The position numbers and the translations under genes were made by a program. This document shows, piece after piece, positions 1 through 21,830 of a stretch of DNA of 24,706 bases. The DNA is from a virus. Position 1 is the first letter of the stretch; every line of letters begins with the position of its first letter. Below the pieces are notes generated by a model that was not told the origin of the DNA, ran no database searches, and saw only the letters and a program-made list of their open reading frames with translations. The DNA is taken from positions 1 through 24,706 of the IMG/VR virus record IMGVR_UViG_3300037485_000422; one strand, written 5' to 3'.

Positions 1-462
1 TGGCGACGATAAACCTTGCACTTGTTCACAATTAGTATTTAAATAAATAACCAATGGGTGTAGTTGTTCTTTGTTTATTGTTTCTTGTTTAACTATACTA
101 ACAGTGCTTTGACTGTGCTTTGTACTGTGCTTTTGCAGTGCTATGTCTAGTGCTTTGGTAGTTGCTTTGGTATTTTTTACAATAGCAATTATATTTGATG
201 AGTATTGATTTTTACTAATTTCTACCATTTCTATAAATCCATAGTCGACTAATTCATTTAATCCCGCAGAGTAAGTTCTCCAATTTTTAACCCCTATTGC
301 TTCCATAACCATTTGTGAAGGAAGCCCAAACTTATCCTTCCAACCCAAACGATTGCAGTGTTCAATAGCAAAAAAATAAATTGCGTAATGAATAGGCTTT
401 ACTTTGTCTGGGTTATCAAATGCCCAGTTGCAGAAGTTTCTACTTAAATCGTAACTATTCAT
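1..462 (-). CDS. replication initiator-like winged-helix protein (cut by window edge)
   Basis: The gene starts at 462 and stays open to base 1, giving the first 154 residues. Residues 1-95 look like the winged-helix N-terminal domain of phage replication initiators or DnaD-like replisome organisers: an aromatic-rich helix pair (YAIYFFAIEHCNRLGW, residues 27-41), then a helix-turn-helix (about 47-80) reading like LPSQMVMEAIGV...YSAGLNELVDYGFI. A polar linker (residues 98-121) follows and is encoded by tandem DNA repeats, the arrangement seen in phages whose origin lies inside the initiator gene. Its first 8 bases overlap the end of the gene at 455-649, so it is the last gene seen in that leftward unit. 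The family role is inferred from this pattern; the C-terminal loader-binding or initiator part is outside the window. It could instead be a transcription regulator with the same fold. Confidence 0.68.
   Translation of the reverse strand, partial: MNSYDLSRNFCNWAFDNPDKVKPIHYAIYFFAIEHCNRLGWKDKFGLPSQMVMEAIGVKNWRTYSAGLNELVDYGFIEMVEISKNQYSSNIIAIVKNTKATTKALDIALQKHSTKHSQSTVSIVKQETINKEQLHPLVIYLNTNCEQVQGLSSP
101..169. repeat. iteron-like tandem repeats, candidate replication origin
   Basis: On the plus strand six 11-12 base units follow one another with almost no spacer: ACAGTGCTTTG (101-111), ACTGTGCTTTG (112-122), ACTGTGCTTTT (124-134), GCAGTGCTATG (135-145), TCTAGTGCTTTG (146-157) and GTAGTTGCTTTG (158-169). 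The shared core is GTGCTTTG, decaying to the right. The unit is about one helical turn long and is not a multiple of three throughout, so selection on the protein alone does not explain it well. Iterons inside the initiator gene are known from lambda O and from many other phages; the origin role here is inferred. Confidence 0.6.
166..197 (+). promoter_or_regulatory. possible rightward promoter beside the iterons
   Basis: TTTG at 166-169 and TATATTTG at 190-197 are 20 bases apart, fitting the Bacteroidetes sigma-A pattern. It points right, antisense to the replication gene, and its -33 part overlaps the last iteron. It could make a primer or antisense RNA. One or more such matches are expected by chance in coding DNA this AT-rich, so it is weak. 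Confidence 0.3.
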
Positions 463-649
463 TTGGTTCTATATTATAATAAAACTTTAAAATAAAAGGC
501 AGTAATTTTTCAACATCATTTCTTGTAATTGTAACTGCTGCCCTATTTTCACCTTCTACACATTCAAAACATAAATATTCACCAATGCTAACAAACATAA
601 CATCACTTGAAATATTTATACATTCAAATTCTAAATAATCTTTACGCAT
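455..649 (-). CDS. small hypothetical protein, 64 aa
   Basis: I do not recognise this 64-residue acidic protein. It has one Cys pair (residues 27 and 30 in a YLCFECVEG stretch) and a basic residue-poor, hydrophobic C-terminal half ending in ILKFYYNIEPNE. No membrane segment or known fold is evident. It is the first gene after the structured RNA and terminator at 670-761, with only about 20 bases between the T-run and its ATG, so its expression should depend on read-through of that terminator. Its TAG stop lies inside the first codons of the replication-like gene (8-base overlap), which suggests translational coupling and makes it part of a replication unit. Confidence 0.6.
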   Translation of the reverse strand: MRKDYLEFECINISSDVMFVSIGEYLCFECVEGENRAAVTITRNDVEKLLPFILKFYYNIEPNE

Positions 650-669
650 AACTTAAATTTTTAGTAAAT

Positions 670-761
670 AAAAAACCCCTTAAATCCTTTGGGGCTTCAC
701 GTCCAAATTCATTAAGAGGTCTTAATAACGTCTTTAGGTTCTATAGTGTGAAGCCGAACCG
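670..761 (-). ncRNA. candidate structured RNA: H-type pseudoknot, inner hairpin and terminator
   Basis: Read leftward, the RNA starts near 761 and can form GGTTC (760-756) with GAACC (741-737). The loop of that stem holds GGCTTCAC (755-748), a perfect 8-base match to GTGAAGCC (700-693), which gives an H-type pseudoknot. Between them sits a hairpin ATTAAG-ACCT-CTTAAT (726-711). The RNA ends in CCCC (694-691) paired with GGGG (679-676) followed by six T (675-670), an intrinsic terminator. Bases 694-693 are shared by the pseudoknot stem and the terminator stem, so the two partly exclude each other. It may be a free small RNA or a leader/attenuator for the gene starting at 649. I cannot assign it to a known RNA family. 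Confidence 0.55.
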
Positions 762-765
762 TTTA

Positions 766-773
766 CAAATATA
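766..773 (-). promoter_or_regulatory. promoter -7 element for the structured RNA
   Basis: Minus-strand TATATTTG reading from 773 to 766 matches TAnnTTTG. The -33 part is not ideal: TTTG elements lie 16 and 22 bases upstream (790-793 and 796-799), not 19. A start near 761 would put the first base just before the GGTTC arm of the pseudoknot. Confidence 0.5.
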
Positions 774-784
774 CAAACTATTTT

Positions 785-2972: not shown

Positions 2973-3199
2973 GCAATTAGATTTTTAAGCTTTTCGTTTA
3001 ATTCGTCTTTCGGTATAACAATAAAACTAGCTTCTTTATCAAGTTCTTTTTCAAATACTTGTTCAGTTTTTCCGTAACATTCGTAAAGACGAACCTTTAA
3101 ATCTTGTACCTCATTATGTGTATAATATAACCAAATAGCCAGTACTCCAGTTGCGCCTTGTTTCTTAATAATTTCAAAAAGTTTGTTTAAATCAATCAC
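2969..3199 (-). CDS. candidate holin, BhlA/UviB-like single-span membrane protein
   Basis: A 76-residue protein with a short N-terminal helix, one hydrophobic stretch (QGATGVLAIWLYY, residues 14-26) and a charged tail. The motif QG-x3-VL-x-IWL and the charged region after it resemble BhlA/UviB-type holins, which let the endolysin reach the wall. It starts with GTG at 3199, overlapping the TGA of the upstream gene, and its own stop overlaps the endolysin ATG. The position directly before the lysin supports the call. The hydrophobic stretch is short for a full membrane span, so it may instead be an accessory protein. Confidence 0.5.
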   Translation of the reverse strand: MIDLNKLFEIIKKQGATGVLAIWLYYTHNEVQDLKVRLYECYGKTEQVFEKELDKEASFIVIPKDELNEKLKNLIA

Positions 3200-21100: not shown

Positions 21101-21170
21101 GCGGAGTTAGTGTAATGGTAACATACTAAACATCCAGTTTAGAGTCGGCGTTCGATTCGACCACTTCGCT
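21101..21170 (+). tRNA. tRNA-Gly(UCC)-like gene with altered anticodon loop and T-stem
   Basis: Seventy bases fold as a cloverleaf. The acceptor stem GCGGAGT (21101-21107) pairs with ACTTCGC (21163-21169), one G-U. The D-arm is GTGT-AATGGTA-ACAT with the GG pair. The anticodon stem CTAAA/TTTAG holds loop CATCCAG, giving anticodon TCC. The T-loop is TTCGATT. Glycine identity bases are all present: G1-C72, C2-G71, C35, C36 and T73. Defects: base 33 is A where T is almost universal, and the T-stem (21146-21150 with 21158-21162) needs a bulge or mismatches, with a short variable region. No CCA is encoded. It is antisense to the last 45 bases of the Mom-like gene. Confidence 0.62.
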
Positions 21171-21830
21171 CAAAGCCTTGCGTTCCGTGAGGCTTATTTT
21201 TTTTCCTTTATACATTCCTGCACCTTGTTTGTCAATTTCGCTAAATGGTAATATTGGAACAGTAATTTTGCAAGTTTTGTCTATTAGGTAAATGTATCTT
21301 AATTGATAACCTTTTAATTTTTCCCATTTATGAAATTCTTTTGACAAACCTAAATGAAATGCTTGCATAGATTGTATTACTTCATTTGTTTTTGGATTTA
21401 TCCTTAATTGTGAATTGTCTTTTATTTGTGTTAAACTAAATCCGCTTGCACGATATATTGTACCATCTCCGCTTTGTGTACCATCTGAAAAACTAACAAT
21501 CCATTTAATTTGTGGTGCATTTTTTTTAATTAATCTAATGCTTATTGCTATGCATCTGCTTTCAGAATACTTAGGTAAATACTCATCAAAAGCCATTCTA
21601 TTTAATTCTATAAACTCATTCCAACCCGTACCTGCAACTAAAGGACTTATTAAATCTTTACGCATACTACTACCATAAGACATAACACCATGCAATTGAT
21701 TATCTAAAAAGCAACCAAAATGTAAATTACTATTTGGAACTACCTTACCTGAATAATGATGTTTCTTTACAAATTCGTTAGCAATTTTTGAAGGTATTAC
21801 TTTAACGATTATTTCCTTTGCTCTGCCCAT
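21126..21830 (-). CDS. Mom-like DNA adenine modification enzyme
   Basis: A 234-residue GNAT-fold protein resembling phage Mu Mom, which turns adenine in DNA into a bulky acylated form that blocks many restriction enzymes. Conserved segments are KHHYSG (23-28), a VMSYGSS strand (49-55), ELNRMAF (75-81), IKWIVSFSDG (108-117) and GTIYRASGF (123-131). The ATG lies 22 bases inside the ParB-like gene. The final 15 codons overlap the antisense tRNA-like gene, and the C-terminal residues (SEVVESNADSKLDV) look like a tail shaped by that overlap. Whether it modifies phage DNA here needs chemical proof. Confidence 0.78.
   Translation of the reverse strand: MGRAKEIIVKVIPSKIANEFVKKHHYSGKVVPNSNLHFGCFLDNQLHGVMSYGSSMRKDLISPLVAGTGWNEFIELNRMAFDEYLPKYSESRCIAISIRLIKKNAPQIKWIVSFSDGTQSGDGTIYRASGFSLTQIKDNSQLRINPKTNEVIQSMQAFHLGLSKEFHKWEKLKGYQLRYIYLIDKTCKITVPILPFSEIDKQGAGMYKGKKISLTERKALSEVVESNADSKLDV

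Follow-up and report, generated by a model that had tools for sequence, protein, structure and literature searches.

The repC attenuator leader of pT181 consists of a promoter, a folded leader and an intrinsic terminator placed directly before a replication gene, and its terminator is induced by an antisense RNA transcribed from the opposite strand. In the IncB/IncI-type repZ leader, two parts of the leader, one of them a hairpin loop, pair as a pseudoknot upstream of the initiator gene; translation is activated by the pseudoknot, whose formation an antisense RNA prevents. The put RNA of phage HK022 is the folded 5' RNA of an early operon, and put RNAs sit upstream of the terminators that they overcome. 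The phi29 packaging RNA is phage-encoded and has complementary loops, and the type III antitoxin RNA (ToxI) is a pseudoknotted RNA, organized in tandem repeats and lying ahead of a terminator and a gene, in that order. In the plasmid pMV158, a separate antisense RNA controls repB (RNAII/repB; PMC4485353).

The RNA described here lies in a 24,706-nt stretch of viral DNA (positions 1 to 24,706 of IMG/VR record IMGVR_UViG_3300037485_000422; hereafter the window) and has features in common with each of the systems just named. It differs from pT181 in that the partner strand belongs to the same RNA, and from repZ in that its second hairpin is the intrinsic terminator and that only sister families could pair with a start region. 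With put it would have in common a possible control of terminator passage, but here the terminator belongs to the fold. The likeness to pMV158 would be RNA control of a replication initiator, though the phage RNA is by contrast same-strand and phage-borne. Unlike the phi29 RNA, it sits at the replication operon, away from packaging genes and from any phi29-type packaging module, and the large terminase of the window is an ordinary one of the phrog_2 type. Unlike ToxI, it occurs as a single copy per slot without tandem repeats, the following gene varies, and the 64-amino-acid ORF found there in the window belongs to no family. Rfam 15, to which the original prediction had pointed, contains no match to the window at the gathering threshold, and relaxed thresholds over positions 600-800 gave a best E-value of 0.98, below threshold; literature searches, limited to open-access papers, retrieved no description of the RNA. 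The RNA is best read as resembling replication-gene attenuators and the kissing-loop control RNAs of plasmids, and as lying outside all Rfam families.

On the minus strand, positions 773-670 read TATATTTG-TAAAC-GGTTC-GGCTTCAC-ACTATA-GAACC-linker-AAGACCTCTTAA and, after AAGACCTCTTAA, TGAA-TTTGG-AC-GTGAAGCC-CCAAA-GGAT-TTAAGGGGTTTTTT. The first hairpin, P1, is closed by GGTTC (756-760) and GAACC (737-741); its loop holds one kissing strand, K5 (GGCTTCAC, 748-755), followed by ACTATA (742-747), in which the A..ATA columns are invariant or nearly so. An A/T-rich linker (724-736), delimited in the alignments, leads to P2, a long intrinsic-terminator hairpin (723-672). Its outer stem P2a is formed by AAGACCTCTTAA (712-723) and TTAAGGGGTTTT (672-683), the latter assigned from the single-sequence fold and from covariation, and its inner stem P2b by TTTGG (703-707) and CCAAA (688-692); between them TGAA (708-711, invariant in A1/A2) faces GGAT (684-687) in an internal loop that, like A..ATA, is a conserved unpaired part of the RNA. 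The apical loop of P2 carries the second kissing strand, K3 (GTGAAGCC, 693-700), which pairs over 8 bp with GGCTTCAC. Because both strands of this helix sit in hairpin loops, it is a loop-loop kiss that is compatible with the terminator and leaves the terminator stem free. A T-run (670-675) ends the terminator, and the match of model R1 spans 669-760. The internal loop of the terminator hairpin differs between families: TGAA/GGAT in that of the window, the same two sides swapped in Cellulophaga phage phi18:3, and AGTA/GAA, which is loop-E-like, in a GCAG-type sister family; the comparison took in L154 (1644-1737) and GCAG-type loci.

Nested folding of the window sequence alone already yields P1 and the long terminator hairpin; however, the folding energy is unremarkable relative to shuffled sequences (z = -0.9), so that evidence for the RNA must come from relatives. 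These were collected by exact-pattern scans of viral contigs in which one part of the RNA was fixed at a time and the free part could show variation. In an alignment of 22 sequences, the 27 pairs were 99.3% paired and 18 had changed on both sides; all eight pairs of the 8-bp helix were kept, six of them with compensatory changes. A covariance model built from these 22 sequences without the kissing helix matched 132 sources, including the window, once each, a few of the matches being cut by a contig end. A scan of cellular contigs with one pattern gave three matches, all attributable to chance, and looking in annotated phages for DNA similar to the RNA returned spurious matches only; relatives in annotated phages were reached through their replication proteins.

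The larger alignment comprised 102 model-aligned matches, 101 of them distinct. Across these 101 relatives, 24 of the 27 pairs covary and 99.3% of the cells are paired: all five pairs of P1 (99.8% paired), eight of the nine modelled pairs of P2a (99.1%), all five of P2b and six of the eight in the kissing helix (99.4%). Since the kissing helix had been left out of the model that produced the alignment, its count is an independent test. Compensatory changes are lacking from the terminal A-U and C-G pairs of the helix, and homologues breaking both of its arms without compensation, looked for as evidence against the helix, were not seen. None of 500 shuffles reached any of the covariation or pairing measures, and sliding all 3' partners by one to three columns lowered pairing to 34-51%. 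At least 22 alleles of the kissing 8-mer were counted, almost all with the pattern N6-AC/GT-N6, in a sample that is non-random because the first scans held part of the RNA fixed. These observations confirm that the structured RNA in the window is real.

The original prediction, made from the sequence of the window, had described GGTTC/GAACC and the 8-base pairing with one arm inside the first-stem loop, preceded by a -7 element and followed by a T-run and an ATG; all of these are present, and the pairings are exact on the minus strand. The 8-base helix had been taken for an H-type pseudoknot, a reading replaced by kissing loops because the partner strand itself occupies the apical loop of another hairpin that covaries. 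Neither the inserted ATTAAG/CTTAAT hairpin (84.8% paired) nor the short CCCC/GGGG terminator said to share two C bases with the pseudoknot (71.6% paired, no covariation) is conserved, and the 8-bp helix shares no base with the conserved terminator stem. The view of the locus as a cis-acting leader stands as to a structured 5' RNA before a replication unit whose first loop pairs with a distal strand, whereas the proposed competition of the 8-base stem with the terminator finds no support, because the covarying terminator hairpin and the helix coexist as a kiss. A small ORF within P2 (ATG AAT TTG ... TAA) was considered as well and rejected, as relatives such as L098 and L100 do not preserve it.

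Viral contigs with the RNA number well above one hundred, and it also occurs in cultured phages; it constitutes a family of about 90 letters found ahead of DNA-replication genes in many viruses of aquatic Flavobacterium-type bacteria. A sample free of the bias of the fixed-part scans was obtained by choosing 80 contigs by their replication helicase alone. The covariance model matched 50 of these; the remaining 30, with sister types recognized partly by eye, comprised eight contigs that end too early, 14 with the GCAG-type sister, seven with a further type and one with none. The RNA or a sister of the same layout (21 cases) is thus found in 71 of the 72 testable contigs, the seven further-type loci being counted on promoter, terminator and repeated strand, as P1 is unclear in some. 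The sole exception is L185, where another gene abuts the initiator gene. A relaxed descriptor recovered two of three GCAG-type regions on which it was tried and matched about 1% of shuffles.

Among cultured phages, Cellulophaga phage phi18:3 (KC821620) carries the RNA at 3075-3168 on the minus strand, with a model E-value of about 2e-9 in the scanned stretch (covariance-model E-values here are rough), in the intergenic gap before gp007 and the annotated replication protein gp006. A descriptor of the architecture marks this site as a single place in the whole 71-kb genome. The same descriptor marks the gap before the replication genes in the parts scanned of Flavobacterium columnare phage V156 and Flavobacterium phage elemoE, where the covariance model gives no more than marginal scores; when each region was shuffled as a control, the descriptor matched 3 or 4 of 2000. 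The structure is absent from the scanned stretches of Polaribacter phage Leef_1, Maribacter phage Panino, Tenacibaculum phage Larrie, phage MW202828, Bacteroides phage BT-TP2 and two gut phage contigs.

The flavobacterial promoter consensus is TTTG / TAnnTTTG (PMC6847099), and in Flavobacterium psychrophilum the TAnnTTTG box lies at -12 to -5 (PMC9723704). In the window, the -7 element TATATTTG occupies 766-773 and a possible -33 element TTTG lies at 790-793, both on the minus strand. Of 140 non-redundant loci, 133 have a TAnnTTTG box whose end is separated from P1 by 3-7 nt, in most cases 5; given where the box lies in F. psychrophilum, transcription is expected to start at the base of P1. 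The spacing from the -7 box places the predicted start at 761, which gives a predicted RNA of about 92 nt (761-670, minus strand). All 140 loci have an ORF start no more than 60 nt beyond the RNA end, as the leader layout originally predicted would have it, and in 135 of them no TAnnTTTG lies between the RNA and that ORF. The slot runs from promoter through RNA and terminator to the opening gene of the replication operon, at most 60 nt further on; judged by sequence motifs, this is the arrangement of an attenuator leader, with no further promoter before the gene.

In the window the first gene past the terminator is the 64-amino-acid ORF (455-649, minus strand, ATG at 649; cluster c34), followed by a truncated winged-helix-type protein (1-462, minus strand) that its position suggests to be replication-initiator-like; in relatives its slot is held by c1, a DnaD/lambda-O-like helicase loader. 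The usual downstream block is an optional small ORF, the DnaD/lambda-O-like loader and a helicase or primase-helicase, and a gene for a DnaA C-terminal domain often sits upstream of the RNA. Similarity of the RNA correlates weakly with that of the flanking proteins (Spearman 0.10-0.32). Alleles thus seem to be exchanged between phages, and this weak co-inheritance indicates no specific protein partner. Three contigs (L201, L204 and L213) carry two such RNAs, 1.7-2.4 kb apart and with different kissing alleles, flanking genes inserted ahead of the initiator that by eye are ParB-, PAPS-reductase- and methyltransferase-like. Elsewhere in the window, the region 2235-2150 (minus strand) contains another TATATTTG box, a TTCG-capped terminator hairpin within about 60 nt and, ahead of the gene that follows, one more TATATTTG box; this is possibly a second small promoter-terminator RNA. 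A tRNA-Gly (tcc) gene lies at 21101-21171 on the plus strand, opposite to most genes.

In 51 of the 52 loci of the GCAG-type sister family, the P1-loop strand complements the P2-loop strand. The 6-mer of the P1 loop appears again immediately ahead of the downstream start codon: the locus's own allele is found there in 34 of 52 loci against 6 of 312 for other alleles (the 52 loci are not all independent; six alleles are each matched). Three copies of the strand thus covary in this family. Structure in the start region lowers translation in Flavobacterium (PMC6847099), and pairing at the start codon would therefore be expected to repress. In the family of the window no start-codon copy was found, the own allele being no commoner than other alleles in the phage loci, and complementarity between the RNA and the start region is not above background; translational control by pairing therefore does not apply there, and the kissing helix appears to be kept for structure alone. 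The kissing strand was also considered as an antisense to targets in the phages of this family and rejected on the same allele comparison.

We regard a structured leader or attenuator of a flavobacterial phage replication operon as the preferred account of this RNA, at about even probability. Transcription would start at the P1 5' end, and the P1 loop would capture the 8-mer carried by the loop of the downstream terminator hairpin, so that the RNA of about 92 nt ends in a compact kissing fold. No recognizable promoter separates the T-run from the operon, whose start is at most 60 nt away, so the operon's transcripts must read through the terminator. The kissing fold would then most likely set the level of replication-gene mRNA, and the terminated RNA would accumulate as a stable by-product; in the sister family, pairing of the P1-loop strand around the downstream start codon would add translational control. 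Among the alternatives tested (the candidate helices of the original prediction), no antiterminator fold is conserved. The fold, the promoter and terminator motifs, the slot and the triple covariation of the sister family are observed; regulation of the replication genes by the RNA, as well as its direction and its trigger, we infer.

The promoter and terminator would also suit a stand-alone phage sRNA acting in trans, perhaps on host functions or defence, which would lie before the replication operon only because that slot is expressed early. Its sRNA-like ends (the predicted start at P1 and the intrinsic terminator), the weak correlation with neighbouring proteins and the presence in some phages of two RNAs that differ in allele agree with this. 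However, the next gene is always at most 60 nt away and mostly lacks a promoter box of its own, the phage loci hold no target for the own allele, and the matching target in the sister family is the adjacent gene; a trans-acting sRNA is therefore rather unlikely. The conserved position, often between the DnaA-like gene and the DnaD/O-like initiator, would also fit a transcript or primer of a replication origin whose fold positions the primer or opens DNA for the adjacent initiator. The phages with two RNAs, one of them ahead of other genes, argue instead for a leader of gene blocks, and the intrinsic terminator and start-codon copies point to gene expression, which makes an origin function improbable.

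Still less probable is a put-like cis RNA that modifies the elongating RNA polymerase to pass this and later terminators: a 5'-terminal folded RNA in an early operon does precede a terminator that must be passed, but that terminator is part of the fold, unlike in put RNAs. At the level of DNA, the 8-mers might be inverted operator sites of a DNA-binding protein, with the RNA pairing incidental, and the near absence of G-U pairs from the kissing helix (748-755/693-700) in the window and its relatives (2 of about 800 cells) is what an inverted DNA repeat would show. Yet P1 and P2 enclose both 8-mers exactly and covary independently, G-U pairs are many in the terminator stem, and each of the at least 22 alleles would call for a protein specificity of its own; we consider this explanation very improbable.

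The RNA may, somewhat short of an even chance, represent a previously undescribed class of phage RNA switch, in which a kiss through a diversified 8-mer, joined in one branch by start-codon pairing, would control read-through and translation. If so, the RNA would act like the copy-number RNAs of plasmids, but from the same strand. A strongly supported RNA structure outside Rfam sits at a control point of DNA replication, and a terminator loop that kisses an upstream hairpin is an unusual link of RNA folding to transcription. The natural kissing alleles provide ready-made variants for testing it.
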